Assembly (NCBI GenBank): GCA_037176885.1
Contig: JAWWNJ010000089.1
Location: forward strand, 930,001-994,000
Source: Favolaschia claudopus
Taxonomy: Eukaryota; Basidiomycota; Agaricomycetes; Agaricales; Mycenaceae
Reading direction: 5' to 3'
Length of the DNA stretch: 64,000 nt
Shown here: in pieces, positions 22,300-49,528 of the stretch
How the letters are laid out: every line of letters starts with the position of its first letter
How positions within the stretch are numbered: position 1 is the first letter of the stretch
Notes under the pieces: model-generated
Seen by the model: only the letters and a program-made list of their open reading frames with translations
Database searches by the model: none
Told to the model about the DNA's origin: nothing
Position numbers and translations under genes: made by a program

Positions 22300-23033
22300 C
22301 CTTTGAGATGAGCGCTTCTGTACAGGCATATAATAATCCCCCCTACAAAAGCTCGTCGGCATGCAATAAGGACAACACCAGGACAAGATAACACATACCA
22401 TCAGGCTCCCCACCTCTCTTCCTCCTCACAAACTTCTCCGCCCCCGCCCAAACATCCTCCCCGCCTCGCGCCTCCCTCTCCCACTCCTGGTAAGAGTCCC
22501 CATACGCCACGACCAACCGCTCCAACCCCCTCCGTCACCTCCTCCAAGAACCCCACAACGCGCTCCTCGTCCGTCACTGGGAGCCCCGCGACCAGCACCC
22601 GCAACTGCCGATATCATTCGAGAATCGCACTTGAAAGCGACGGACGCAATGGAATCCTGGGTAGGCCAGGTTGGCATCTTCGCTGGCGCTTGAGGGTGTG
22701 GGAGCTATAGAAGGTCTTGACGCTCATCTTCCTCTTCAATGTAAACCTTCTCAAACAGGTCGAGGTGCTTCATGAACGCGAAGAACGGGTGGTCGAGATC
22801 GACTTGAGAGTCGAGGCATCTCGATACTAAGGCGCTTCAGAGAGTGCGTTTGGGCGAGGGCGGGGAGGAGGTGCGGGCCCGTGATGTCGCCAATCAGGCG
22901 ATTCCGGGGCAGCGGTGCAAGAATTTGTAATGAGTGTCGAGCTTCAAGGGAAATGGGCTTGAATATAGGAGGAAGCGGTGGACCGAGGACTCGAGGGATG
23001 AGGGGGCCTTGTAGAGCATCGTGATTAGAACGG

Positions 23034-24361
23034 TGAAACGCTGACTATAGGGCAACTATGGAAAACACCCAAGAAATGAAAGGAATTAAATCCCTAATCA
23101 AATCTTAAATATAATCCTAACCACTATGAGATCGACGTGCGAGGTTCGGGGTTCCAGTCCAGTATAGACTGTGGCAATCCAACTATTCTAACACTCAAAA
23201 TATACTAACTAAAGCTTTCGCGATTGCTGACTTTGTACAGAGAATGTCTATACGAGTCCTATGTTGACACAGGAAGTGTGGGTTTCAACAAGGGTTTGAG
23301 ATGTAACTCTTCTCAAGAGGTTTAGGTGTTTAAGTTGCTTGTTAAGCCAATATATTCCACGCGTAAGATGTCCGATAACTGTTTCACGCGTCCCGTAGGT
23401 CAAAAGTTCTTATAATTCCACGCGTAAGTTCCCAAAATTTCCAATATTCCACGCGTACAATTCAAGAGATGATCCAACAGACAATATATATTGACGAAAC
23501 AAACCAAAGAAACAAATAAGCTTCTGGAGTTTATCTCGAATGGAGTCCAACGTCTAGTTGTTCACGAAGCCGACACTGGCTTGACGCTCACAGCTAGAGG
23601 AGGGAATCCACTAGAGTACCAGTACAGGAAACGATGCCTTTTATACCTTTCACTAATAAATAATAAGAGACCGAACAGTTGACAAACGGGTATAATGTGA
23701 GAGAAACTAGGGCCCGCTATGCCCTCGCCCTATCCTTGGTGGCCAGAACAGGAAATAGATCAAAGGTTCATTCAATCCAAGTCCTTACCCCGATCATTAT
23801 GTTATGACAGTGGGCCGCAGCGGCCCAATCAATATTGCCCAACTTGGCAGTAATACCCTTGGTATCATTGTCCCTCTTCGGACCTTGCTCCGTGATCGTA
23901 ATACGGCGGCAGCCAACTCGGCATGACGTGTAGTTCCTTTGTAGGAATATTCTACTTCCGCAAACCCTCGCAATTGGTTTGTAGTATTATTCGTGAAAGC
24001 CTCTTGCCTCCAGGAAACACTCCTTCTGGCCTTTCGGCAGGTTCTTATAAGTCCCAAGTTATATCCCACTCATTCTGCCTTTGGTCGGAACACAGGGCGA
24101 CTCCCAATCCTATTCCGGATGGTTAGAGACCTATCGTGATAGGTCTGTTCTGGAATATTATAACTTCCACGCTATACCAGCGCAGTCGTAGACAGTGCCA
24201 GACCTCCCACTTAGTGTATAATCCTTTAACTGGCCGCTCAGGCAAACGCCAGTCCTCATACGAGCGTATTCCCGTGGTATTTAATGTATTACTCTTTTAA
24301 TACAATAGCACTTGAACTGAAAATGAATAAATTCAGCCCTGGCCCAATACCGGGTCTATCA
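23034..24361 (-). repeat. Long terminal repeat (3' LTR of minus-sense element)
   Basis: It is 1328 bp long with TG..CA ends. It contains several copies of the ATTCCACGCG word (about 23353-23458), an ACCTATCGTGATAGGT palindrome near 24130, and one TTTCGCGATTGCT motif at 23216 followed by a TTGTACAG acceptor-like sequence. Confidence 0.9.
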
Positions 24362-24396
24362 TCTCCCCTTTTCATAAATTGAGTGTCCCCACTCAA
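24362..24396 (-). promoter_or_regulatory. Polypurine tract with adjoining hairpin
   Basis: On the minus strand TTTATGAAAAGGGGAGA ends at the LTR border and would prime plus-strand synthesis. Next to it, TTGAGTG (24379-24385) and CACTCAA (24390-24396) form a 7-bp stem with a TCCC loop. The same arrangement with a different, still-paired stem recurs at 29797-29833. Confidence 0.75.
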
Positions 24397-24758
24397 CACT
24401 TGGTCCTTATTTTGCGCCCTCTTTGCGCTATCAAAAGTGTTTCCCACAGTCATTCGGCTAACTCGGCTATCGCGACCGGTGTGGTCCCGCGAGATTTGCT
24501 TCCGTTGATAGACAGCGGGATCCTCGCTTAGATCCCGAAAACACTTATAAGTGTTCATTATTGCCTATACTGACGCCTACAACCGCCAATTGTTGTGTTC
24601 TGAGTGTGCGGAGTTTGCGCGAGCAAAGTGGGTCCGTGCGCATCAATAAATCCACGTGATTTATGTTTGTTTTGCCGCAGCTTTTCTCCCACTTTCTCTG
24701 CTCTTCCCACCACAACCACCTATCGCGAATACTCAAACTACAGCTCTAGCACACTGTC

Positions 24759-27700
24759 ATGGGTACGTGGCTGGCTTATATTTGTAGTTTAGAGTCTCAC
24801 AGGTTGCCTTGGGCTGTTTTACAGCTCAAGTCACTCAGAACGCTGCCCTCACCATTGAGAACGCATTCAACACCTTTCGCGTCAGCCCGCACACCCTATT
24901 CCTGGACTCCATGTCGGTGATCCAGTACCAGGCTGCAGCTGCTGAGGGACGTCACATCGTCCCTTACAAGCTTAAGCCCGAGGACTTCAGCTATCCAGCT
25001 GGACTTCGCCCGTTCTTCCCGCTCCATGCCTCGGAACTCGTTCACGACTACCCGCTCAACGGCGCGGATGTCCATTGTCTTCAACTATTCATCCATCCAG
25101 TTACTATCTGGCTACTCCCCTACGTCCGCGACGTCTATCGCTCTCACCAGACGAACCCCGACTGGCTAGCCTGGCTCCTTCAACATTTCGAACCAATTGC
25201 TGTGAGCATTCGCGAATGCTCATTTTCAGCGCTTTTTGCTGACTTCAACTTTTCAGCGACTCATCTCCCGTTACTACGAAGCTTTTGACATCACAGAGAT
25301 CTTCGACCGGCTGCTCGTCGCCATCCACAACATTGGGAGGATGTTCGAGAAGGCATACCCCGGACGATGGAAGCAGCCTTATCGCATCCTTCCCATGTCC
25401 TTTGAGGGTCGGGACATTAGCAGGGTACGTTGTCCCTTATTCGTGACAGATCTCATATTGATAAAACTTCTTGGTTTTTCAGATTCTGCACCTCTCTTTG
25501 CAGTTCACCCTGCCCGGGATCATTGAGTTCGAGGACCACTTCCCTTGCACAGAGCTCGGGCCGACGTTCTACGAAGAATCCTGTCTCCGCGATATCAACA
25601 ACGAATACTTCGACCGTTTCATTCGTTACTGCGCCCTCGTCGCCTACCAAGGGGCTGAGGTCGAGGGCAAGTTCGACGAAGCTAGTGTCGCCAAAATCAA
25701 GCCTCTAATGGACCAAAGCGTCTTCCCTTTGGTGAGTTTCCATCCTCTTTCTGACCTTTCGTGATAGCTAATGCTTCTCAATGTTTAGGCCAAATTGGAT
25801 CAGGTCATCGGCAACATCGACAACCGCTCTTTTATCGACGCCATCCTCAACTCTGCTTGGACAGTCTGGTCCCTCATTCCTGAGAAGGATCGCAACCCTG
25901 GCTGGGAAGCCGCACTGCCCGAGGCTCGTATCTGGGGCTATTCTCTCCCACAGAGATACCGTCTTCCTAGTGGCAAGAGGACTCGTCCGCCAAAATTCAG
26001 TCTCTGGCGCGACTGCTCGCATCGCGACTATGTCGCCGACGCCTGGTTCAAGGTCAACAACCTTCCTCTCCCCAGCGGCTCATTAGCGCGACCTCTCACG
26101 CCTCCGTCTTCTGAGTCGTCTCGCTCGTCCACTCCCGAGGCAAAACCCCCAGCGCTCTCTCGCTCGTCTAGTTTTGGCAGTGCTGGCCCCGCACTCGGTG
26201 GCCCTTCGCCCTCTAGCGTTGCCAAGTTCTTCAATTTTGGCGACGGATCCAGCAGCCCGGACCCTATCGCGATTGATACTGCGACTGCTCCCACTGTAAG
26301 TCCTAAGTTTCTTTACTCAGTACTTTGCGCTGATTGTCCCTACTTAGGACGCTCCTGCTCCTCAGACTCCCAGGGCTGGTTCATCCGCCCCCGTAGTCAG
26401 ACTTCCAACTCCGCGTTCGGGCGCGTCGTCTGGTAGTGCCTTCGCCGCTGGATTTGCAGCAGGCGCTGCTTCGTGTGGTCCTGACGATGGGCCTTCTGCA
26501 ACTGGTGGCGAGGAGGGTCCAGACATTGGTATGGGCAACGACGATCCTTTCGTGACTGATGCCTCCGCCCCTGCGGGCGCATCTCAGGTACTCTTTACCT
26601 GTTCTTCTCTTTCATTATTGGTTACTTATGCTTTTGTAGGACGATGCGACGCTTCAGACCCCTCAGGCTGGCTCGACCGCGGCTATCGCGACAGATGCCC
26701 CACCTGCGTCTGGTCTTCGCCGAAGCCCGCGTGGCGCGTCCAAAGTAAGACTCTTGTCTTAACATCAGTTTCCTAATTGCTAATGGTCTCCCTTTAGACC
26801 AACGATGAGCACGAGGAGGCGACGGCTGGCACTACTGCCGACGAGTCGGACACTGCGTCCAATTCTCGTTCTTCCAAGCGCAAACGTGCTGAGGAAGAGT
26901 CGTTCAAGCCTGCTAGAGATGATGACCAGGATAGCGGTCTCTCCGACGGCGAATCTGAGGTCTCTCCGCCTCATAAACGTTCGAAGAAGGGCAATCGCGA
27001 TAGCGAGGAACCGTCGCCCTTGAAGGGTAAAAGCAAGAGCAAGGGCAAGAAGAAGGCTGACGAGTCTTCCCCTGGCCCTGCTGAGGTTCGCACCACTCGC
27101 GGCGCTTCTCAGGCTCACAAAGAGGACCCCTACGAGGCGGAAGGCTTTGAGCCGACCACGTTCGATATCCGCGCAGCGAAGGAAGGTCTTGGGATCCTTC
27201 CCAAGAGCTTCCAAGCTTCTCTCCTCAAGGGTACAAGCGTTTTGGTAAGTTATTCGCTCTTCCCCTCTGTTCTTTCAACGATTCTGAGCATTCGTGATAG
27301 CGCCTCCTGGGCTGCGGAAATTGTATGCTCCGCAATCGCAAGTGCCGTCGCGAGAATGGCCATGCTCGTTGCGATGCCTGCGTCAAGAGCGGCATGTCTC
27401 GGTGCTCAGATAGCTTCTCTATCCCTGAGTACCTTCAAGTCATCAATTACTTGGAGCCGCTTACGGTCTTCTCAGACAAAAGTACGTCTCCTTGATTCCT
27501 TATTTAATTCCAGCGTCTCTAACTTCGTTATTTCCTTAGGCTGGAACTCCGCCTTCAACGAGCTTCGCGACGCTCACTATTCCCAGATCCTCTGTGATCG
27601 GCAAGTGACACTCGCTAATGCCCGTCTTCTCCGCGCGCGCGCCAACTTGCGTGCTCTCATGAATGGTTCCGAGGTGGCTTTCAAGGGCAAAGTCATCCCT

Positions 27701-28054
27701 GGAATCGATTCCGTTGCGGAGGAGGAGGTAGAGTTTTACACCAAACTCTTCAAGACCGCTCGTAAAGATTCCGAGCGCGAGTTCTACATGCCTGACGGCA
27801 CTCGTGCGGACGACTACTATTACGAGTACGATTCGCAGTACGAAGGCTCGCAGAGGTCCGCAATGGACGAAGAGGAAGGAGAGGAGGTGCGTGTGATAGC
27901 GGTGGAGGAGGCTGAGGCTCCCAGAGAGCCATCTCCCATGCAGGAGGATGCCCCTGTCGTTCACGCACCCTCTATCTCCCTCGACGACGCTATTGCCGCA
28001 GACGACGCTGGTCGCAACGAGTTTGTCGAAGGTTCCTCTCGAGGAGGAACTTGA
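24759..28054 (+). CDS. Gene A of LTR element: 930-aa protein with Zn2Cys6-like cluster
   Basis: There are ten exons. The nine introns are 24763-24824, 25202-25256, 25425-25482, 25732-25788, 26296-26347, 26588-26639, 26745-26797, 27245-27300 and 27482-27539, all GT..AG and 52-62 bp; the coding sum is 2793. The first 330 residues look globular, with no family I recognise. A Ser/Pro-rich region follows (SSESSRSSTPEAKPP), then an acidic and basic stretch with a nuclear-signal-like LKGKSKSKGKKK at 625-636. Residues 704-734 hold cysteines spaced CX2CX6CX8CX2CX7C, which fits the Zn2Cys6 DNA-binding signature. The tail is acidic. By family knowledge the cluster binds zinc and DNA; a C-terminal position is atypical for Gal4-type factors. 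The gene runs antisense to the retroelement. Confidence 0.72.
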
Positions 28055-28565
28055 TCTTTGTAAGTCCTCTCTTACTTATTCCATATCTTAACTGACTCTT
28101 TCAGTTAGATGTTATATTATACGCTACCAAGATGGACTTTTCGCTATTGCTCCGAACTGGACGAACGCGCGCTCCCAATTGCTTTGAACATTCGTATATC
28201 TCGAAATCTCCGTACATATCTTTCGATATTCCGTGCTTTTGCTTGATTTCTTTTAGATATTGTCTTAGCTATGATTTCGGGACTTTCGATACATGGGCCT
28301 GATTTGTATATTTGCTATACTGCCCTTAAATTGTATCAACGCTGCCTCAAAATGAGGCTTTTCTCCATTCGCGAATGCTTGAATCCTAAGTCACCAGTCC
28401 TTACTGATGCCTCGTGCGCATTTATCGATTAAGGAAATTTTGTCGCGATTGCCTCGCTGTACGGACACCGTTCCGTTTTTCCCCAATAGTAAATAATCCA
28501 ACTCTTTGGACCTATTTAAGCGCAATCATGAAAGCGTTTTCGTTGGCTCCTCAACTTTATTCTCC
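28055..28565. other. Spacer between genes A and B
   Basis: This AT-richer sequence contains two copies of the element's dispersed motif (ATTCGCGAATGCT near 28370, GTCGCGATTGCC near 28443). It probably holds the terminator of gene A and the promoter of gene B. No gene was seen. Confidence 0.5.
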
Positions 28566-29369
28566 ATGTCGACACGTCCCTTCGTTAGCCGCCATGGTCT
28601 CCCCGTTGTTCCTGTCCTTAAGGGAACTGCCTCTATGCACGAATTCCCTATCCTCACTCCGGACTCCGCCAGACGTCTTGGCAAGCACACGAGTGCAAAT
28701 GAGTTACTCTCATCGGTACGGGTATTTTCTATCACGAAAGCTAGCCACTGCTAATACTTTCGATCTTAGAACCCTGCGGTTGATTCCAATACCAATCCCA
28801 TACTGCAGACTACCTGCGTGCAGTCTGGGACTTTCTATAAGTGGTCTCAACCTTGCACGGATTGCATGGTCGCTGGTACTGGTGCTACCTGCACTTTTAC
28901 CCAACGTCTCAAGTTCGTGGAGGTCTTGGAGGCACGACGTGTCTTTGCCCAGGAGGTGATCTTTACCACCAACTCCAATCCTGGTGCGTTTGCCTACTTT
29001 CTGACCTATCGCGATTGCTTACTTTCTTTCCCAGCCGAGGCTTATCGCGAGTGGGAAGTCCAGTTCTTCGCTGACTGTCAAGTGGCTTTCCACCTCTTTA
29101 ACAAGAGCATCGCTCCTTTCGACAAACAGCGCTTCTCCATGCTGTCCCAAGTCGAGGCCATTCACGACTTTACTCGTCTTAGCTACTTGCACATGCTCTT
29201 TGGCGTCTACGATTATCCTACTGATGTGAAGACACTTGTCATTCAGCGTATGCAGGGTATGCAGGAGGCTTTCGAGCTATCGGCTGTGGAGGACTGTATG
29301 GTCCAGGAGATAGTGCGACTAAGCTTGTACAGTAATTGTAGAGCTGGTAGTCCCTCTAGCTCTCAGTAG
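28566..29369 (+). CDS. Gene B of LTR element: 232-aa Cys-motif protein
   Basis: Exons are 28566-28715, 28770-28983 and 29035-29369; introns of 54 and 51 bp each contain one copy of the element's motif (ATCACGAAAGCT, ATCGCGATTGCT). The protein starts MSTRPFVSRHGLP. It has a cysteine group, TTCVQSGTFYKWSQPC followed by TDC and GATC. The second half of this group resembles the RCDACVKSGMSRC part of gene A. The remainder (EAYREWEVQFFADCQVA, then RMQGMQEAFELSAVED) is helical in character. The cysteine arrangement suggests metal binding but is not a complete Zn2Cys6 cluster. I do not recognise the family. A TTG-started extension upstream was not used. Confidence 0.65.
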
Positions 29370-29839
29370 TATAGGATCGATTCCTTTCCACTTGTAGAGT
29401 CCCTTAGAGTAGTTCATAGCTCTTAGGAATCCATGTGTTTGTCAAGGAACGACCGAATTCCACTTCCTCAGTCAATCGCGAAAGCCATCTTTGCTTATCC
29501 CTATCGCTATCTCATCTTCGGATCGCTCGCGTCAAAAGACCAAGACAGACTGGTGCGGTCCCCTGTTCTACTTCCTATTTCGGTAATTTTCCTGTTTCGG
29601 TCGTATTACGCTTTGATTCGCGAACACATGCGGCATCCTTATTCCGCTTATCCCGATCACAGTATTTCTTATACCGATCAAAGTTTCCCTTTATATCTCT
29701 GAACTGCAGAGTCTATAGAAATCCTAAGTCCTTTTAGGATTCAACTCCGGCCGCTCATTCCGCTTATCCCGCAATCTATCACGATTGCTCCTACTCCTCC
29801 CCTTTTCATAAATTTTAACTGTCCCCAGTTAAACTCTTT
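29370..29839. other. Spacer between genes B and C
   Basis: It contains three copies of the dispersed motif (near 29475, 29615 and 29779) and, at its right end, the second polypurine-tract/hairpin unit. No gene was supported. Confidence 0.5.
29797..29833 (-). promoter_or_regulatory. Internal second polypurine tract with hairpin
   Basis: CTCCCCTTTTCATAAA at 29797-29812 is identical to 24363-24378 at the LTR border. It is followed by TTTAACTG / CAGTTAAA (29814-29821 and 29826-29833), an 8-bp stem with the same TCCC loop but different stem bases. It lies 7 bp before the gene C start codon, so it is also in that gene's 5' leader. Confidence 0.65.
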
Positions 29840-31416
29840 ATGACGGAGTCCATCCACTCGCCTAGCTATAAAGAGCTAGCCTTCTACACTCCTTATAGCA
29901 GTATCTTTTCTCAGTATCCCTTTCTCAAGAACATGGCTCGCTCTGGTCTCACTAAAGGTCAACACGACGTAATCGTCGGTGTCGCAGACAGTGTTTCTGC
30001 GACCAAGTACCCCGACCGTGCTAAGCAGCGCACATTCCTCGACCAACAGACTGTTACTTTGGTGCGTTTTCATATTTTAACACTTTTCGCGAATGCTCAT
30101 AGCGTTGTCAGGACTCGTTCTCTGGCCTTCTCGGCGAGATTGCGAAGGACAAGACTCTCTACGATGCTTTCTACAGCGTCAAAAACAGCTACCACCAGAC
30201 TGCTGTCGGCTCCAACGGCGTCATTGGAGGTCGCTATCCTCTTATTCTCGAGTTGTGTGCTAAGATCAAGGCCGAGCGCGAGCTTCAACGAGGAAACACC
30301 GTAGCTTCTCAGCAAGCACACCGTACCGAACTCGAAGAGGCTCGTGCTCAGGCTGACGATCAAGAGAGCAAGAATTCGCGAAAGCCCCGCGCTCCTCGCG
30401 CTAAGGTAATTCTCCTTATTCCTGCTCGTCTCGATTGCTCATTTACTCTGCCAGAAGGACAATAAAACCAAGAAGTCCAAGGCCACTATCGAAGATGGAG
30501 ATGAATCTCCCTTCGACGACTCTGAGCTTCCTGGTTTTGTGGACGACGCCATGATTGTGGACGACTCCGTGCGTTTATCATTCATTATTGCTGTCATTAA
30601 TTCTGACTTTGCAAATTTAGAACGACGCAAGTGCCTCTGGTCACCGGGCGACTCAGTCTCTTGACGAGCGCAACCCTGCGGTGAGTATTGACCTGTCACG
30701 ATAGCTTCCTTCTCGCCACTTCCTCTTATTGCTGCCTCAGACTTCGCAGTCTGGGAGTACGCGTCCTTCTTCGGTACGCCTCTCGTTTCTTCGCATCAAG
30801 GGGATTGACCGAAACTCTGCCTCCTATATCAAGGCTATGGCCATTCTTGCCCGTACTGATCCAAGTTCAGCTTCAGCCATCGTCGTTGAAGACTTCCCCG
30901 TCCCACCACCACGGAAACGTGCACGTCCCTCACAGCCACTCGCGCATGAGGACTCAGTCGAGCAGTACGATGGTGCGTTTAGCTTTCGCGATTGCTTCTA
31001 AGCCAGCTTCTGACTTTCTTTCGAAGCAACCGACTTATCAGTTAACAACCCAACAGTCCGCCAAACTGTTGCCGAAGCGCGGGACGCCGTCAAAAGCTCC
31101 ACAGCCGATTCGATGGGCGCATTACGACTCCAAGAAGCAGAACTTCGCTCGCGAGTCGGCTTCGAGAATGCCCAACTCCGGTATCACCTTGATCACCGCG
31201 AGTACTTGCTCACCGATCTTCGACGCGTCCTCGATGCCCAACATAAGCGGGAACAGGTACTACCCACCGGTAATGCCTAACTACCCTCTTTCGTGAGCAG
31301 CTTCCCTTTTTCACGAAAGGGTGCTAACCCTTCCTTAACAGAACTGGACGCGAGTTGCAGAACTCCCTCAACTGCGGAGGTCCACCTTCCACTCTCTGCC
31401 CTTATTGTTCTGTTAA
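29840..31416 (+). CDS. Gene C of LTR element: 408-aa acidic/coiled-coil protein
   Basis: There are seven exons. Introns are 30062-30111, 30406-30454, 30569-30620, 30681-30740, 30973-31026 and 31257-31341, all GT..AG; the coding sum is 1227. The N-terminal 170 residues look globular (GLTKGQHDVIVGVADSV, then DSFSGLLGEIAKDKTLYDAF) and end in a helical Arg/Glu/Gln-rich stretch. A basic patch (SRKPRAPRAK) is followed by an acidic segment (EDGDESPFDDSELPGF). Another basic motif (PPPRKRARP) precedes a C-terminal coiled coil (ALRLQEAELRSRVGFENAQL). Two basic patches suggest nuclear entry; the role is unknown. Five of its six introns contain the dispersed TCGCGAWWGCT-like motif. The gene is antisense to the retroelement. 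Confidence 0.68.
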
Positions 31417-32431
31417 TTACCACTCTCCTCGTCATTGCTTTTAGAGTCTACACTTCCGCTCATTAACCGTATACCCCGACCAACTCTTTTTCAGTCGTTA
31501 CAGCCTATCGCGAATGCCAACTAGTATTCTCCTTAGAATATTTCGCTACACTCCTTTCAATGTGACTCTGTGTTTTTGCCTTTGACTCGCGTGGAACTCC
31601 TCTTTTGTTCCGTTCTGAGTCTAAGCCCAGAGCTTCTTCGCTCTCTTCATCATCCGAGTCCGATTCGTGCTCACCACTATCGGTGCCTTTCGCGATTGCT
31701 CCAGGCCTCTCGAGACGAACTTCTTCAATCTGCAGATCCATTCCAACGAACGGATCTTCTTTTGAGTCTTTTTCAATTGGGCCTTCTAACATCTCTCTCG
31801 ATAATTCAATCGAGTCGGAAAATTTTTGATGGCCCAACTCGACTCTTTTGTTTTGGTGCTGCTCGAGCAGTACAACTCCGAATTGAGCTGTCCAGTCTTA
31901 CAGCTTTTGACCCGCCCTTCTCACATAGAAGGTACGGTTTTGTGTGTTTGTACAGCAGAGGGAGAGTCTGGAGGATTGGTGTGTTCCTCTTCGACTTCTT
32001 CCTCGATGGTAGAATGTGTGCTTTTGTTCGACAGAGTATTCGTGATAGCTATTTGCTTTTTCTTTGTACGCGGTAACCCGGTTCCTTGGCTTTGGCTCGA
32101 GATTGTGATTTCCCTGCCTCAGTAAGAGTACGCTCTAGGTCTGTTGGTATGGGTAACCGACTAGACCAGCGTGATTTAGGTTTTTCGCGAAAGATGTGGA
32201 AGCAAGTTCGCCGTCCGCAGATATTTCTGACGAGTCTGGTTGTACCGAAATGTTGACCTAAGTCAACGGCACTTTTAACGAATAATTCGTTCTTCTCGGA
32301 GGTAAGTCCAAGGTATAATCCTGTATAGGAAGGTAGAGATATTTCTATACGCAACAAGTCCAAACTTGGCTTGAGATTTCTACTTTGAAGTATAGAAATA
32401 GATGGATGAACCCCTCGCGGTGGGCTCCAGA
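31417..32431 (-). other. Leader region of the LTR element
   Basis: In the element's own (minus) sense this is the region after the primer-binding site. It has two open stretches, 32049-32430 (no ATG inside the element; DLGQHFGTTRLVRNICGRR) and 31505-31837 (MGHQKFSDSIELSREMLEG, acidic). Neither resembles gag or pol convincingly. Four more copies of the dispersed motif lie here (near 31506, 31688, 32038 and 32184). A remnant of a lost gag is possible but not supported. Confidence 0.35.
32412..32429 (-). promoter_or_regulatory. Primer-binding site of the LTR element
   Basis: On the minus strand TGGAGCCCACCGCGAGGG starts two bases after the LTR end. TGG at this position pairs with a tRNA CCA end; the adjoining bases resemble an acceptor and T-arm 3' half. 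The donor tRNA was not identified. Confidence 0.65.
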
Positions 32432-33759
32432 TGAAACGCTGACTATAGGGCAACTATGGAAAACACCCAAGAAATGAAAGGAATTAAATCCCTAATCAAA
32501 TCTTAAATATAATCCTAACCACTATGAGATCGACGTGCGAGGTTCGGGGTTCCAGTCCAGTATAGACTGTGGCAATCCAACTATTCTAACACTCAAAATA
32601 TACTAACTAAAGCTTTCGCGATTGCTGACTTTGTACAGAGAATGTCTATACGAGTCCTATGTTGACACAGGAAGTGTGGGTTTCAACAAGGGTTTGAGAT
32701 GTAACTCTTCTCAAGAGGTTTAGGTGTTTAAGTTGCTTGTTAAGCCAATATATTCCACGCGTAAGATGTCCGATAACTGTTTCACGCGTCCCGTAGGTCA
32801 AAAGTTCTTATAATTCCACGCGTAAGTTCCCAAAATTTCCAATATTCCACGCGTACAATTCAAGAGATGATCCAACAGACAATATATATTGACGAAACAA
32901 ACCAAAGAAACAAATAAGCTTCTGGAGTTTATCTCGAATGGAGTCCAACGTCTAGTTGTTCACGAAGCCGACACTGGCTTGACGCTCACAGCTAGAGGAG
33001 GGAATCCACTAGAGTACCAGTACAGGAAACGATGCCTTTTATACCTTTCACTAATAAATAATAAGAGACCGAACAGTTGACAAACGGGTATAATGTGAGA
33101 GAAACTAGGGCCCGCTATGCCCTCGCCCTATCCTTGGTGGCCAGAACAGGAAATAGATCAAAGGTTCATTCAATCCAAGTCCTTACCCCGATCATTATGT
33201 TATGACAGTGGGCCGCAGCGGCCCAATCAATATTGCCCAACTTGGCAGTAATACCCTTGGTATCATTGTCCCTCTTCGGACCTTGCTCCGTGACCGTAAT
33301 ACGGCGGCAGCCAACTCGGCATGACGTGTAGTTCCTTTGTAGGAATATTCTACTTCCGCAAACCCTCGCAATTGGTTTGTAGTATTATTCGTGAAAGCCT
33401 CTTGCCTCCAGGAAACACTCCTTCTGGCCTTTCGGCAGGTTCTTATAAGTCCCAAGTTATATCCCACTCATTCTGCCTTTGGTCGGAACACAGGGCGACT
33501 CCCAATCCTATTCCGGATGGTTAGAGACCTATCGTGATAGGTCTGTTCTGGAATATTATAACTTCCACGCTATACCAGCGCAGTCGTAGACAGTGCCAGA
33601 CCTCCCACTTAGTGTATAATCCTTTAACTGGCCGCTCAGGCAAACGCCAGTCCTCATACGAGCGTATTCCCGTGGTATTTAATGTATTACTCTTTTAATA
33701 CAATAGCACTTGAACTGAAAATGAATAAATTCAGCCCTGGCCCAATACCGGGTCTATCA
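32432..33759 (-). repeat. Long terminal repeat (5' LTR of minus-sense element)
   Basis: It has the same length and apparently the same sequence as 23034-24361, except T to C at 33294. Confidence 0.9.
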
Positions 33760-33960
33760 ACGGAGTTGATATTCTTGACACCGTCGAAGAGGAGGACATC
33801 GTAGAGGATTGGTTCGAGCCTGGATACGCTTGATGAGTGGCATTGAGTGCATGAGCTGAGAGAGAAGCACCAGACGCGAACACGATGAGCGACAAGCATA
33901 ATTGAGTGATTCACAGCGGCGTTTTCGAATACGAGCCTTTTTTGAGCTCGGTGGTGGAAA

Positions 33961-36901: not shown

Positions 36902-37385
36902 TGCGAGGAGTCGCTCGCTAACGGGACTTCAAGCACTCAAAGGGACGCGACGAGCTTTGTGGTAAGACCCAGAAACGGTCGAATATATTGACTTACAATC
37001 TACAGACGAATGCTCGTGCTATAGATGTAAAAGGATAACCCTCTTTGAATGCTCAAGAGAGGGGGAGCTGATTACAGCTGATAACGAGCTTCAAAGTAAT
37101 AGTCAGTAAACTAGCTGAGAGATAGAACTTATCTCTCTATGATATTCCTTTTAACCTAACTCCCGTACCTCTCCCAAGCTCGGAGTTACTCAACGAAGCT
37201 TGAAGAGGTTAAGTGGGTGATGGTTTGGTGATAAGAAAGATAGATTCACGTGATATGTGACTACTTGTTACATTGTAACGATATGTCACTACTTTGCTAA
37301 TTTTACAAGTACGAGCGGTAAGAAGATATTCATAGTAAGTCAAAATTTAAAGTCCCTGGGGTTATAAAGCTTCAGATACCTTACA
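36902..37385 (-). repeat. 3' LTR of gypsy element
   Basis: This 484-bp repeat has TG..CA ends and is apparently identical to 49040-49523. Confidence 0.92.
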
Positions 37386-37403
37386 GAGCCCCCCTATCTT
37401 CTG
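37386..37403 (-). promoter_or_regulatory. Polypurine tract of gypsy element
   Basis: On the minus strand AGAAGATAGGGGGGCTC ends directly at the 3' LTR start TGTAAGG, the expected position for plus-strand priming. Confidence 0.7.
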
Positions 37404-37411
37404 TTGCGCGA

Positions 37412-40315
37412 TTAGTTCAAAATTTCGGGCAGAACGATCTCGGATATGTCTTGATCACGCCAATCCACCGGGAAGTATTCATTGAATAGTCGATTACCCG
37501 CCTCCCAATCAGAAGGCTGAGGGACTTGGGCGCGAATAGCATCCTCTCGCAGTCGAGCGGCGTTGACCTCGCCGTTTCGGAAGAAAGTATGCCAATTGCC
37601 ACGGGTCCTCCAAACAATCTTGGGGTTTGAAGTACGGAATAGACCCTTCTTGACAGACTCCAAGACGCCGTAGGCTTGGGCGGACAAGTACCCGTTCATC
37701 ACCCAGGTAGCGTCTTCAAAGACTTCCGCGGGCGGCCACAAGGTACGATCAGAGTCTTGATCCGTTCCGGGAATATGGCCCAAGAGCATTCCGATCTCAC
37801 TCTGACTGACGCTATCCAAAGTATAGAATTCACTTGTGCCCGCGTCGAAGAGACGGGTTTCTCCTTTGTCGAAGTGAGTGACTTGCAAACTTGGGCCTTC
37901 AGCGAACCCTTGTACCAATTCAGGGTAATATAGGCTTGCTACGAATCGGTAAACCCCCCCCATCCTGATGAACGCTACTGATTCAGGGCGTCTTAACAGG
38001 GTGTGGATCCGTACGAGGTAGTCGGTGTACGTCGCCACTTCCCCGTTCCTATTGTGTACGAGCGGTTCATCGACATATCCTGGACGATAGAGAGCCGACA
38101 AAGTGGTTCGTAGGAGCGCGGAGATGGGAAGGTCGTTAATCTTACGCACGTCTGCGCGTTTCAAGCATATTTCGAACGGAATGGCATGACGGATGGCCAA
38201 AGCGAGTAAGTCTTTGAATTCTTCGATGTGGCGATTCCGCGCAGCTAGTATTTTCATTCGCCAGTATGATCTCTCGTCGGGAAAGGATATACGAGAGTTG
38301 GTAAGCCATCCATCGTCCCAAGCTAACTGAATCGGCGGATACACAGGATCAGTCTCCAGGATTTTCGTTGCCCACGCGAGGATTTCCGCCATAGCTCGTT
38401 CCTCCGCTGATCTGTGTGACCAGGATGACGACGAGGACGGTAGTGCAGGGTAAGCGGTTCCCCTGTCCCCTATGAGCTCCGGTAAATTCCCGCGAGACGC
38501 TGAAAGAGGCAGGATTTCGTGGCTTCCCAGCCTAGTAGGCGATAACCCGTGGCGACGGTATTCAGCCGCTCTATCCGACAATTCATCGTCTGGCGTTACG
38601 GGACTGGTTGTACCCGATAATCCTTCGGCAACACGATGAACCCATTCGTTGGTATATATCCTTCCCGCTCTTTCCAACGAGCTGTCCACGGCTTCCAACT
38701 CGCTCGTAGAAACGAGGGTATCCATTCCCATTCTGTGAAGCAGCGAGCTCCTCTGATAATGAGGTACGCTCTCAATCGTTCCAGTAGATCCGACTGATCC
38801 TTCGGATTTGTGTCTTTTAGCAGGAGGTTCTTCTAAGAGAGGCGCCTCGCGGTGAACCGTAGAAGGAGCGCTCATCGATGAGCGGAATGTCTCGAGTCCG
38901 CTGTAAGAGCTGAAGACTTGTCCTGGACGAGGTGCGTATACTATCCTTGTCTTTTCTCGAACTAATATAGTGCTCTCATAGTATACCGATTTCTCGCGAA
39001 CAGGATCCTCTTCGTAATTTTCAGCGAACGCGGACAGAGGATTGACGTGCATCGTGGGTTGACGGCGAGAGAAGGGAGGTTCATCTGTCGAGATGGGGTC
39101 CTGCCGGTAGTAAGTGTAGACCCCTCCACCTCCTACGTTATGTCGTCTCTCGAAACATTTGAATCGTTCCGACGCGACGCGTATTTCGATGGCATCAAGC
39201 AAAATCCTCAAAGCAAATCCTCCGAAGTCCAGCATACCGTGCTGTTCTTTAGGCCCAGTCCTGAAAGTCGTCGTTGGTTTAGCGTCCGCGACCTTCCCGG
39301 CTCTAACGATTTGAAAGAACCAATCAGACCCCTCCCATCGCTCCTTCCATTTTCCGCTGCTAGGGAGGTCCGTGAACTCGTGGACGCCGTCCGGGTCCCT
39401 TAAGATTAATTCTTCAGCTTCAGCCCACAATGTTGGCGAGATTCGAAAGTAACGATCCTTCCCGCTCATGTCGTCCGTCCAAGTGAAGTAGACAGGGACT
39501 TCATGGGTAATGAAATGCAGCAAGTTGGTTTCGTGAAAGTCGCGGGGAAGATGGTAGATCACTCCCACTTTCTGGCGCTCCCCGAGACGAAGGCTTTTAA
39601 TGAATTCAAGATCTCCGGGAGCCAGCTTGTACTGCGTAAAGTCGGCGACGGAAGAGAACCAAGTAAGAAATCCTATGCATGAGACGACGTATTTTTTAGC
39701 TTCATCGATAGCCTCCAACGCTTCCTCGTCTGAATTCTTAGGTTGAAGCAGGACAGCCAAAGCGGGCTCGGGCGGAATGGGTCCGACGAGTTCTGGTTTA
39801 CCGCGCATGCAGTACCAAGGGCTATTAGTCGCCACAAATTTAGCGATCTGATAGAGCTTGTTGGCAGTCCATACAGCCCGGTCAGCCCAAGAACGCTGGA
39901 TCCAACATCCAGAGAAGGCGCGTAGAGTTCTCATATCATCTGATGCTTCGCTATTTCCTCCAGGGATGTCGATATACTCATCAATGATATGAACACGATC
40001 GTTGGACCATGCGAAAGCGACAGGATCCTTCAACCCATTGAAAGGAGGAGAGGAAGGAAGCGCGGCAGGGGAGCACCAACTCAACCAGTGTTCGCTCCTG
40101 CGGTTCCAAACCGGCATCTTACGGAAATCAAATAACTTCTTCACATCCGAGTGGGTGTCAGGATGCAGGAGCCTCGGCGGGTCGCTCATGTACTCGGCGA
40201 CGTAGGGCGGCAGCACTGAAGGATCGGAGAGAAAAGACCCAAAAACGACTCCATTAACGGCGGTCCATTGCGGTATCACATACGAGCCATTCCGAGACCT
40301 AGGGAAATCTTCCAT
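37412..40315 (-). CDS. ORF3 of gypsy element, homologue of a resident host gene (967 aa)
   Basis: This is an uninterrupted frame between pol and the 3' LTR, in the same orientation. It shares ordered landmarks with the host-type protein at 53399-56655: VPVYFTWTDD against IPLYFSWGPL in the middle; GGVYRFVASLYYPELVQ against GGVIGRIAREEVCDE near the C terminus; and a later TLWPPAEVFEDATW against SWWPKPNAWQKGN. It has no signal peptide, transmembrane segment or furin-like site, so an envelope role is not supported. The family is known to me only as large uncharacterised Agaricomycete proteins. It begins MEDFPRSRNGSYVIPQW. It may be a transduced cellular gene copy, or the cellular family may derive from such elements. 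Confidence 0.7.
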   Translation of the reverse strand: MEDFPRSRNGSYVIPQWTAVNGVVFGSFLSDPSVLPPYVAEYMSDPPRLLHPDTHSDVKKLFDFRKMPVWNRRSEHWLSWCSPAALPSSPPFNGLKDPVAFAWSNDRVHIIDEYIDIPGGNSEASDDMRTLRAFSGCWIQRSWADRAVWTANKLYQIAKFVATNSPWYCMRGKPELVGPIPPEPALAVLLQPKNSDEEALEAIDEAKKYVVSCIGFLTWFSSVADFTQYKLAPGDLEFIKSLRLGERQKVGVIYHLPRDFHETNLLHFITHEVPVYFTWTDDMSGKDRYFRISPTLWAEAEELILRDPDGVHEFTDLPSSGKWKERWEGSDWFFQIVRAGKVADAKPTTTFRTGPKEQHGMLDFGGFALRILLDAIEIRVASERFKCFERRHNVGGGGVYTYYRQDPISTDEPPFSRRQPTMHVNPLSAFAENYEEDPVREKSVYYESTILVREKTRIVYAPRPGQVFSSYSGLETFRSSMSAPSTVHREAPLLEEPPAKRHKSEGSVGSTGTIESVPHYQRSSLLHRMGMDTLVSTSELEAVDSSLERAGRIYTNEWVHRVAEGLSGTTSPVTPDDELSDRAAEYRRHGLSPTRLGSHEILPLSASRGNLPELIGDRGTAYPALPSSSSSWSHRSAEERAMAEILAWATKILETDPVYPPIQLAWDDGWLTNSRISFPDERSYWRMKILAARNRHIEEFKDLLALAIRHAIPFEICLKRADVRKINDLPISALLRTTLSALYRPGYVDEPLVHNRNGEVATYTDYLVRIHTLLRRPESVAFIRMGGVYRFVASLYYPELVQGFAEGPSLQVTHFDKGETRLFDAGTSEFYTLDSVSQSEIGMLLGHIPGTDQDSDRTLWPPAEVFEDATWVMNGYLSAQAYGVLESVKKGLFRTSNPKIVWRTRGNWHTFFRNGEVNAARLREDAIRAQVPQPSDWEAGNRLFNEYFPVDWRDQDISEIVLPEILN

Positions 40316-40769
40316 ATTGCTCTGGAGTTATCGAGATAACGGATCGAATGCTCGAGTCCGCTAGCGCTCGCCAAGAAAACCACCCGATCGAATTCTCGAG
40401 TCGGTTGATAGTCTAGGGACAGAGAATAGGAGATAGAGTAGAGGCGCAGATAGGAAAGTAAAGAAAGAGAATAGTAGGTCTTGAGATAGAGAGACGGAGA
40501 GAGGGAAATGATAGAATCCAGTCGGAAGTCGTCCCATTCTTGTTTAAATGAGGGGCGACAGTGAACACGAGGGAGCCCCGGGCTCAGTTGAAGGAGCACA
40601 CCAGTGTGCGGGTGAGAGAGTAGACAGCGGAAGCATTGAATTCGACCAACACAAGAGAGTCGCCATCACCCAGGAATCCGGCCACGAGTAATAGCGTAGG
40701 AAAGGAAGAGAAAGGTGAGAAGAGTGGTATGAGCCCGGCCCGCGCTGCCCAGTACAGCCACTTCTGTCA

Positions 40770-43700
40770 TCAACGTAATTTCTTCGCCTCCTTCTCATAC
40801 GCCCTGATCATTTCAGGAGCGTTTTTGAGATCCTTTCTCGTCTGCCAAGAGTCATGCTGAGGACCATACCCCTTCCATCTCACTAACCACATGGGCTGCT
40901 TCCTCGACTTGTCGAACCGCTTGCCGACGACTTTCTCTACCTCGTACTCCTCCGTGACGAATCGGTCCGCTCTAGTATCCAGCATAATAGGACGGTCGCC
41001 CCATTTATCTGAACTCTCCTTGTAAGGCTTCAAGTGGTCGAGATTGAAGATGGGATAACCAGGATAACGGTCGTCTAGCCTCAAGCGATAGGTGCGTGGA
41101 TTGATACGTTGCAGGACTTCGAAAGGTCCTATCCATCTCTGTACTAACTTCGCTCCAGCTCCTGCTGCGTCAACCCATTCCAAGGAATGAGGATTGACTA
41201 AGACTCTGGAGCCAACCTTGAAATCAGGCACCTCCCTACGCCCTCGGTTGTGGTAACGCGCTTGTTCATGCTGTGCACGAGCAATCGCCAAGCGAGCGTT
41301 CTCCCTTGATACCCTTAGTCGTTCCAGGTACGTACTCGTTCCTTTGACCAAACCATAGTCTGCTGTTGATCCTTTTTCACCAGGGAGGAGGAAGTCCAAA
41401 GGGGTCTTTGGCTCGAAACCATATAGCAGATTGAATGGTGTAGTTCCTATTGACGAATGGAAATTACCGTTGTAGGCGAACTCCAAGAGCTTGAGCCACA
41501 TAGCCCAGTCTGATCGATCCTTCGACACGAAAGCTCTCAACATTGTCTCGAGTTGTTTATTCAGATTTTCAGTCTGGCCGTCATGTTGTGGATGGTGGGA
41601 AGACGACAACGACATCTTCGTTCCCAAAGCCTTCGTTACCGCCGTCCAAAAATCTGACGTCCAACGCGGGTCACGATCAGCTATAATGCTATCGGGTAAT
41701 CCAAATCGTGAAACAATGTGCTCGACGAACAACTCCGCAAAGCCTTGAGCGGTGAGGCCTGAAGTGGTAGGAATAAATGATGCATGCTTCGACAATCGGT
41801 CTACCACCACCAAGATAGAATTAAACTCTCCCGACCAGGGAAGGTTTACTATTAAATCTAAGGATATAGATTCATATGGTCGGGATGGAATTGGGTTCGG
41901 AGTAAGGAATCCATATTTAGTGAAATTTCGTTGCTTGATTTTCTGACATATATCGCAGGTAGAAATGAAGTCTTCAATATCTACTTTCATCCGCTTCCAG
42001 TAGAATTTCGAACTCAACTTCATCCACAACCTTTCCGGGCTGGTATGAGGAGATTCGACCGGAGAGTAGTGAGCTTCCCTCATGACCTCTTTCTTCTTCG
42101 ACTCCGGTACGCATAAACGAGGGTGATAATCCGCGTCTCTAAAGAACAGAAGCCCTTGGTCTGATTTAAAGAATCTCTGACCCGGACGCCATAGTCCTTT
42201 GGCTACACTCTCCTGTTGCAATATGGATTTAAACTCTCTGTCCTCGTGGTACGCTGCTACCCAAGTTTGTCTGTATTCGTCACTCATACCGATATGTATA
42301 TTAGGCGGCGGGTTGAGAGCCCCCCAATACTGAGCTGACGGCTCAAGCGTGTCCAATTCCTCGTCTGACTCATCCTCGTTCAAAGTCGGCCGAGTTTCCT
42401 TCAAAGTCTCCGTTACTCCTTCTACCGGGTTCGATATTGTTTCTTTTTTCTCTAGTATACCCCCCCCAATCTCGAAGGTCGGTTTCACGGAGTCTTCCGA
42501 GATGTCCAAAAGCTGATTCTCCGGTACTAGCCTTGCTTCCTCTTCGTAGTCTGTACACGGAGCGGCTTGCCTTTTCCTTTTAGACTGTTCCTCATCTTCT
42601 GCTTTCAATTTTTGGCGCTGTGCTCTCGTAGTCGCAAACGCGCTCTGCTGCCCTTGTAAGCCATCCTCCACGGTCCAAGCTACGAAAGTAGCTTTCTGTG
42701 CTGGTTCCCTTGCTAACCAATCTTCTTGACCGTCCTTTAGGTCGTTCGACATTTCGATTGGGTTTGAATCTTCACCAGCAGGCGAAGTATGATCCGGTGG
42801 CGCTCGCGGTAGCCGAGAAAGAGGGTCGACATTCGAATGGGTACGACCAGGGCGATGGATTATCTCTAATCCTGGAGCATAAGCAGAGAATATTGCTCCC
42901 CACGCCGCTAGTCGACGGTTAGCGTTTTCGTAAGTCCTTGCCCATTGTAATGCCGAATGATCTGTTATTAACAAGATATTCTCCCCTTCAATGAAAGGCT
43001 GGAATTTTATAAGACTATCCTTTGCTGCAAGAGCTTCTCTCTCAGTTGTCGAGTAACGCAGTTCTGCTCCTTTGAAAGATCTGGACCAGTAAGCAATTAC
43101 TCTTTCGACATGGACTATGGTCTCATCCAACGTCTCGCCCCAGGTATCTGTGAAGTCGGTGTCACTATTCTTGGAGGCTACTTTCGTTACAAGGCGCGGG
43201 GGGGCGTTTCCAGCTTCGTAAGCTTCTTTTAGCTTGTCGTAAGCTCTCGTGCCTTTCAAATCCTTCACGCGAATTGGCTGAATTTGTTGTAACGCAGCTC
43301 CAGCGGCTTCATCCGAAGCGTCAGAGTATAGACGGTAAGGTAGTCCCTCTATTGGATGTCCCAACAAAGGAGCTGATTGCAGAGCCATCTTCGCAGCCTG
43401 GAAAGCATATTCCTCTTCTTCTCCCCAGTGCCACTTCGTCTCTTTGCGTAAGAGCTTGAACAGCGGAGCACAAATGCTCGCGTAGAACGGAATGAAGGAA
43501 GAGAAGTATACGACCATCCCTAGAAAGCCCTGCAATTGCGCTAATTTCCTAGGTCTTTCCAGCTCTATAATAGCTTGCACTTTTTCCTTGTGCGTCGATA
43601 AGCCCAACCTCGAAACTTTGTGACCCAGCAAGAGTATCGATGAGTAGAATAGATGGCACTTGGAGGGTGAGAGAGTCACTCCTGCGCTCTCTATCGCTCC

Positions 43701-45917: not shown

Positions 45918-45919
45918 AT

Positions 45920-48856: not shown

Positions 48857-49018
48857 CGAAGCCTCAGATCCCTGATCTCCCGTGCGGGAACCACCTGATT
48901 CAATAGGACGTCCCGCTCGATTGGGATTCTTTCTAGTTGCTGAAGGTACTCGAGAAGTAGTATTACGACCTCGGGATCCTGAAGGAAAGCTCGTTTGGCG
49001 CGACCCAGCCAGGCTGAA

Positions 49019-49036
49019 GACTTCCCAATGTGTCCA
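49019..49036 (-). promoter_or_regulatory. Primer-binding site of gypsy element
   Basis: On the minus strand TGGACACATTGGGAAGTC starts three bases after the 5' LTR end. TGG is the expected complement of a tRNA CCA end. Confidence 0.6.
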
Positions 49037-49039
49037 CTT

Positions 49040-49523
49040 TGCGAGGAGTCGCTCGCTAACGGGACTTCAAGCACTCAAAGGGACGCGACGAGCTTTGTGG
49101 TAAGACCCAGAAACGGTCGAATATATTGACTTACAATCTACAGACGAATGCTCGTGCTATAGATGTAAAAGGATAACCCTCTTTGAATGCTCAAGAGAGG
49201 GGGAGCTGATTACAGCTGATAACGAGCTTCAAAGTAATAGTCAGTAAACTAGCTGAGAGATAGAACTTATCTCTCTATGATATTCCTTTTAACCTAACTC
49301 CCGTACCTCTCCCAAGCTCGGAGTTACTCAACGAAGCTTGAAGAGGTTAAGTGGGTGATGGTTTGGTGATAAGAAAGATAGATTCACGTGATATGTGACT
49401 ACTTGTTACATTGTAACGATATGTCACTACTTTGCTAATTTTACAAGTACGAGCGGTAAGAAGATATTCATAGTAAGTCAAAATTTAAAGTCCCTGGGGT
49501 TATAAAGCTTCAGATACCTTACA
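49040..49523 (-). repeat. 5' LTR of gypsy element
   Basis: This 484-bp repeat is apparently identical to 36902-37385. Confidence 0.92.
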
Positions 49524-49528
49524 GCGCG
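49524..49528. repeat. 5-bp target-site duplication of the gypsy element (right)
   Basis: GCGCG is identical to 36897-36901. Confidence 0.8.

Follow-up and report, generated by a model that had tools for sequence, protein, structure and literature searches.

Positions 23034 to 33759 of the 64,000-nucleotide stretch of Favolaschia claudopus DNA analysed here (the window) are occupied by a young long terminal repeat (LTR) retroelement that is sense on the minus strand and carries three intron-rich genes on the opposite strand. This copy is a non-autonomous, gag-pol-deleted member of a Ty3-type LTR lineage of F. claudopus, and two features of the lineage proved central to our analysis: a six-cysteine pattern of the fungal zinc-cluster kind encoded antisense to gag-pol, and, in five of seven subfamilies, a short motif that recurs within gag-pol above the expectation from synonymous codons. 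From sequence alone, a DNA-binding-like domain, combined with an address that the element bears in its DNA even at synonymous positions of gag-pol, suggests a function for the antisense genes. We assign a probability of about 0.55 to the reading that an antisense-encoded zinc-cluster protein binds the DNA of its own family and counters silencing, in the manner of the VANC proteins of Arabidopsis. The original prediction, an earlier description of the window element that treated the three genes as its cargo, had overlooked the zinc clusters as well as the dispersed motifs.

Zinc clusters and dispersed motifs

A reverse transcriptase (RT) search, with 146 of 1319 candidates scored, resolved subfamilies at about 100, 93, 88, 83, 81 and 70% identity. 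Those compared below are A/B, which unites copies collinear with the window element (class A) and copies with the same LTR and gag-pol (class B); family C; and E (88%), F (83%), G (81%), H and I (both 70%), each represented by one locus of about 10 kb from the RT onward.

TCGCGA palindromes, with an extended consensus of about GCWWTCGCGAWWGC, are dispersed throughout the window element. Positions 23034 to 32431, in which one LTR is counted, contain 23 of them in 9398 nt (one in the LTR, four in introns, nine in exons and nine elsewhere), compared with 3.3 in dinucleotide shuffles (maximum 8 in 200 shuffles), and in the window flanks the palindrome is rarer than expected (10 versus 19). By the same kind of shuffle, class B copies contain 31 and 32 (3.5 expected), while family C contains nine (4.0 expected) together with 40 occurrences of TTCCGCG/CGCGGAA (2.0 expected). 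Profiles of the extended palindromic sites read about GCWWTCGCGAWWGC in both A and B and about AGCTTCCGCGGAAGCT in C, and the motif assigned to each subfamily is TCGCGA in A/B, TTCCGCGGAA in C, TTANCTA in G and CCGCGG in H and I. Genome-wide, CATTCGCGAATG occurs 59 times and its reversed control once, with 68 occurrences of CTTCCGCGGAAG and 25 of its control. Family C motif sites also form pairs with a spacing of 4.3 kb at C2:2058500/2062805, C6:2649089/2653362 and C85:265022/269322, beyond the known family C loci, and these pairs perhaps mark another derivative element.

The motifs were assessed by a split test in which the top three k-mers were taken from outside gag/pol and then tested inside gag/pol against 1000 synonymous-codon shuffles. 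TCGCGA occurs 18 times in gag/pol of B against 2.85 expected, and the first-ranked k-mers of C (CGCGGA, 16 versus 1.94), H (CCGCGG, 8 versus 0.79) and I (CCGCGG, 9 versus 0.56) show a similar excess, with 0/1000 in each of the four cases. In G, TTANCTA was obtained from a gapped search outside pol and is found 7 times in pol versus 2.15 expected (7/1000). Replication at the 0.05 level failed for AACTCC and GATAGC in B, ACCAGC in C, TAGCTA and GGTGGA in G, GACGAA in I and three each in E and F, and no k-mer of E or F rose above the control element described below either. Two further k-mers of E, CGCGAC and TCGAGGA, are more frequent in pol than in its synonymous shuffles (0/1000 for each), but because they were chosen from a stretch that includes pol, E is counted as motif-free.

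It is very improbable that composition, or the way in which the motifs were chosen, accounts for their excess. The motifs were initially picked after looking, one flank also gives a high top 6-mer (CCTCCG, z 10) and several of the other discovery k-mers failed to replicate, as would suit such an explanation; however, discovery and test were kept apart, the shuffles preserved codons, and a control of like CpG ratio (1.03 versus 1.04) yields no replicating motif. This control is an unrelated Ty3-type element at 36902-49527 of the window, with LTRs of about 488 bp that are 99.8% identical. Its minus strand has an open frame of 1724 aa (40773-45944), and the A, C and H motifs occur in the element 1, 2 and 1 times in 12.1 kb, near background.

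The candidate reader of the motif in the window element is encoded by gene 1, whose exon 9 (27301-27481, plus strand) contains a Zn2Cys6-like cluster at residues 703-735. Zn2Cys6 domains have the spacing C-x2-C-x6-C-x5-12-C-x2-C-x6-8-C, which the C-x2-C-x6-C-x8-C-x2-C-x7-C of gene 1 fits. A protein search with residues 650-860 gave nothing at E<=0.001, and one with the C-terminal 380 residues found seven proteins, all from F. claudopus, six of these seven homologues bearing the UniRef name Zn(2)-C6 fungal-type domain. The six-cysteine pattern is antisense in all seven subfamilies sampled, A/B being counted as one and the others represented by one locus each; it is absent from the sense strand of the five subfamilies checked (E, F, G, H and I) and from all six frames of 53 kb of flanks. 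Foldseek comparison of the predicted exon structure returned 26 matches, of which 24 are zinc-cluster proteins, one a kinetochore chain and one unrelated, with none at E<=0.001, and against the PDB by sequence the zinc-cluster peptide alone had no match and a 9-row zinc-cluster profile gave weak matches. On the antisense strand of subfamily G (L034, C89:452309-462300), four separate zinc-cluster-like stretches follow one another in succession. Several zinc-cluster proteins per element are candidate binders of the motif.

The evidence that links protein to motif is circumstantial. When gene 1 is divided into five segments, the ratio of nonsynonymous to synonymous substitution (dN/dS) of the zinc-cluster exon ranks lowest between A and B, which have a motif in common (0.028), and highest in the comparison of A with C, whose motifs differ (0.55), although dN/dS is approximate for class B gene 1, and likewise for family C gene 2 (read with one stop), because splice dynamic programming placed poor introns in both. 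The family C motif, in addition, contains the yeast pleiotropic drug response element (PDRE), TCCGCGGA. Gene 1 probably reads the motif.

A number of observations weigh against this interpretation. At the level of the protein, gene 1 scores 18.5 bits with Pfam Zn_clus, below the 21-bit cut-off, and the zinc-cluster exon of family C has no Pfam match. Between A and C162, a copy about 90% identical that retains TCGCGA at 2.18/kb, dN/dS of the zinc-cluster exon exceeds that of the other four segments (0.26, with four synonymous and four other changes). In this pair, coding TCGCGA sites are kept no better than background (5 of 9 versus 60%), and noncoding ones in 11 of 12 cases versus 66% (p 0.049). 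At the level of the motif, TCGCGA ranks merely third among the class B discovery k-mers, the top contiguous 6-mer of G did not replicate (249/1000) and the next one did so weakly (43/1000), and among 50 listed genomic 12-mer sites for each of A and C only 33 and 17, respectively, lie near listed element genes. Moreover, E and F have antisense zinc clusters and no replicating motif in ungapped or gapped searches, and the motif common to H and I overlaps that of C, with the C motif present in I at 1.61/kb and CCGCGG present in C at 0.94/kb.

The last two of these points suit an alternative in which the motifs are sites for a host factor, or serve the RNA or cDNA in packaging or dimerisation, with some other role for the antisense genes. 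We regard this alternative as possible but doubtful, as a single host harbours different motifs in A/B, C and G, most of the motifs are palindromic, as would be expected of dimers on double-stranded DNA, and the unrelated Ty3-type element of the same window stays near background. The homologous gag-pol sites of B and C also speak against it, since at some of them a single base change gives each family its own motif; many other gag-pol motif sites have no correspondence between B and C.

The window copy, its relatives and their antisense genes

The two 1328-bp LTRs of the window element, at 23034-24361 (the 3' LTR in element sense) and 32432-33759 (the 5' LTR), both oriented on the minus strand, differ from each other at a single base (23896), have TG...CA termini and are flanked by the target-site duplication ACGG (23030-23033 and 33760-33763). 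The minus-strand primer-binding site at 32412-32429, in which 18 nt including CCA match the 3' end of tRNA-Arg(TCT), and the minus-strand polypurine tract AAAAGGGGAGA adjoining the sense 3' LTR at 24362-24372 (read, as was the duplication, directly from the sequence) establish by their positions that the element is read on the minus strand, in the order 5' LTR, primer site, gag and pol remnants, purine tract and 3' LTR. The original prediction had described these features and this orientation, and had noted that gag-pol is missing; we confirm each of these points, finding no gag-pol of the copy's own beyond a pol 3'-end remnant (31595-31891) and a gag 5'-end remnant (31927-32257), both on the sense (minus) strand. 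The LTRs, primer-binding site, polypurine tract and short target duplication are as expected of a Ty3-type LTR retrotransposon. Within the left LTR, the stretch 23358-23460, like its counterpart in the other LTR, contains several ACGCGT sites within TTCCACGCGTA-type repeats.

An LTR search, in which 40 of 270 candidate places were scored, matched at all 40, and ten paired loci were fetched. Six of these (C28, C47, C81, C57, C26 and C24b) form class A and are collinear with the window element, C24b being partly truncated at an LTR end, so that the same three genes do recur under the same LTR at other loci, a point that the original prediction had suggested checking. The remaining four (C24a, C68, C107 and C22), of about 14 kb, form class B. 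LTR-pair divergence in nine copies besides the window element, C24b being left out, amounts to 0 substitutions in C28, C47, C24a, C68 and C57, 1 in C26 and C22, and 4 in C81 and C107; four of the nine pairs are identical and that of C47 differs by one gap alone. Because the LTR pairs are nearly identical, insertion was recent. Target duplications were legible by eye in nine of eleven elements (all but C47 and C24b), and all nine have a central CG, a dinucleotide that makes up 6.5% of flank dinucleotides, which suggests CpG-directed integration. A DNA search with genes 2 and 3, with 40 of 106 candidates scored, likewise matched at all 40, of which 29 are near full length (24 at 93-100% and five at 91%) and the other 11 show 68-71% identity over gene 3.

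Class B is a candidate for the autonomous partner that the original prediction had suggested looking for. It has its LTR and leader in common with the window element, followed by sense gag (with a zinc knuckle), protease, RT, RNase H and integrase and then by antisense gene 1. The domain order in C24a is Ty3-type (aspartyl protease, RVT_1, RNase H, integrase zinc-binding and core domains), with the aspartyl protease above the Pfam cut-off in one model and RVT_1 below it. Gene 1 has a frameshift in exon 8 in C24a, an open frame is visible for every gene 1 exon in C68, and one class B gene 1 intron is gone along with the surrounding segment. Full copies lacking the three genes had been named among the findings that would count against the original prediction; class B indeed lacks genes 2 and 3, but it keeps gene 1. 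Family C (C143), for which the right LTR is known over 228 bp only, combines gag-pol on the sense strand with the full set of three antisense genes in unchanged order, with identities to the window element of 36% for gene 1 (320/896), about 40% for gene 2 (89/224, from a rough model) and 74% for gene 3 (292/396). It is likely that an ancestor had gag-pol and three antisense genes, that class A lost gag-pol and that class B lost genes 2 and 3.

This distribution alters the status of the three genes, which had been presented as the cargo of a non-autonomous element and instead belong to an autonomous lineage, all three in family C and gene 1 in class B. The absence of gag-pol from the window copy might suggest captured host genes travelling as passengers of one non-autonomous element, a possibility that we consider extremely improbable given that the genes are also present in families with gag-pol, that no more than 9 kb separates 55 of 60 hand-grouped gene-1 loci from a listed match to gene 2/3 or RT (compared against 40 gene 2/3 matches and 31 of the 146 RT matches), and that some Mycena species have several gene 3 homologues per genome. 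Random gene capture, or cargo of a single element, is rejected on account of the recurrence in gag-pol families. In C49 (L032), a more distant relative of gene 1 is present as a rearranged fragment next to pieces of gag, with no clear motif.

All three genes lie on the plus strand, antisense to the element: gene 1 at 24759-28054 (10 exons, 930 aa), gene 2 at 28566-29369 (3 exons, 232 aa, with a partial cysteine cluster) and gene 3 at 29933-31466 (7 exons, 398 aa, with a hydrophobic C-terminal stretch judged by eye). Their 9, 2 and 6 predicted introns, 17 in total, are all GT-AG, 49-72 nt long and consistent in frame, in agreement with the earlier gene models. In C162, 16 of the 17 were placed again at identical positions, and the one-codon first exon of gene 1 was recovered in no copy by the splice dynamic programming. 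Five of six intron positions in family C gene 3 match those of the window element within one residue, and five of six gene-3 junctions are matched exactly by one or both of the public F. claudopus entries P0001 and P0002, which are gene predictions and not RNA; the sixth is in neither. Public gene-1 models are short and, with a single exact junction found in two of the four models compared, lend little support to the splice model of gene 1.

C162, which is 91% identical to the window element over genes 2 and 3 and 90.5% over the aligned region, gives dN/dS values of 0.17, 0.28 and 0.06 for genes 1, 2 and 3, respectively, by which the three genes are under purifying selection. Together with the recurrence across copies, these values uphold the earlier view of a selected module rather than a random capture. 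Domain searches with genes 2 and 3 gave nothing above cut-off. Gene 3 has 27 protein matches, seven from F. claudopus and 20 from seven Mycena species, two of them covering only 14-25% of the query. Between the window element and L031, gene 2 is just 69% identical in protein (160/232), though gene 3 is 99% identical (394/398), a contrast that suggests a gene 2 that was exchanged or is fast-changing.

Proposed mechanism and known systems

Elements of the lineage have gag-pol on one strand and, on the other, between pol and the 3' LTR, at least one intron-bearing gene, with zinc-cluster proteins among the products. In the mechanism that we propose, these antisense genes would offer the genomic RNA no usable splice sites, and for that reason their introns would survive retrotransposition, as follows from known splicing. 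The original prediction had given the same explanation, which fits the A, B and C copies read, all of which keep introns, although class B gene 1 is without one intron and its surrounding segment. The lineage also supplies a concrete example of genes rich in introns that would pass through the retrotransposition cycle by virtue of their antisense position. A dimer of the antisense-encoded zinc-cluster protein would then bind the motif on copies of its own family, in trans, and keep their chromatin active, a form of sequence-specific anti-silencing, and copies without gag-pol would use that of class B.

The sites span the whole element, which suggests an effect on chromatin and not on one promoter. 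Anti-silencing is favoured by analogy with VANC (PMC5735166, PMC10398659), and that the outcome is anti-silencing, not repression or another function, is a tentative proposal held at somewhat less than even odds. The same sequence data would suit any self-binding factor, including zinc-cluster proteins whose binding to the motif represses or meters the element as a form of copy-number control, in which case copies that retain the genes and lack gag-pol could serve as dampers; we consider this unlikely, since many copies are young and it is less easy to see why selection would retain a repressor in a copy that amplifies freely, although this is an argument and not a test. The proposal in full, a system of self-recognition and anti-silencing with spliced antisense zinc-cluster genes, a palindromic address that coevolves with the protein and trans complementation between autonomous and gag-pol-less copies, is likewise plausible while falling short of an even chance.

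Antisense genes are known from other LTR elements. In the plant elements Grande, RIRE2 and Retand, accessory genes likewise lie antisense to gag-pol between pol and the 3' LTR, some copies are non-autonomous, as here, and the TRP28 product of Retand is predicted to bind DNA, the function of the plant antisense genes not being established according to the text of these sources (PMC7264820, PMC11963269). The F. claudopus lineage differs from the plant elements in its domain, in a motif that extends throughout the element and in having up to three genes predicted to be spliced, whereas the main text of neither plant paper yielded the word 'intron' (PMC7264820, PMC11963269). Among fungi, the Boty-type element of Botrytis cinerea is a Gypsy element with an extra antisense gene, brtn (PMC8365987), and is likened to the present lineage by its antisense gene alone. 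In the open literature, with subscription papers mostly outside its scope, our search found no description of zinc-cluster antisense genes or of such motifs in fungal LTR elements.

HBZ of human T-cell leukaemia virus type 1 is a single gene and is spliced. Its product is likewise an antisense-encoded nuclear regulator of a retroelement (PMC11963269). Unlike the F. claudopus genes, HBZ has another domain and another host. The yeast factors Pdr1 and Pdr3 are zinc-cluster proteins; they are host regulators, and no orthology with the antisense proteins is claimed. The PDRE to which these factors correspond is contained in the family C motif, as described above (PMC5539612).

If protein and motif are matched, the lineage would display self-recognition comparable to that of VANC, but in fungal retrotransposons, and swapping protein and site between subfamilies would provide a clean test of transposon silencing escape. 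VANDALs are DNA transposons. Like the lineage described here, the VANDAL/VANC system of Arabidopsis has an element-encoded protein and a short motif enriched in its own family (PMC5735166, PMC10398659). The VANC21 motifs are found for the most part in tandem repeats of noncoding DNA, whereas the F. claudopus sites are dispersed, gag-pol and exons included. Related VANDAL families use different motifs (PMC5735166, PMC10398659), and in F. claudopus the motifs of A/B, C and G similarly differ from one another, with those of H and I identical.

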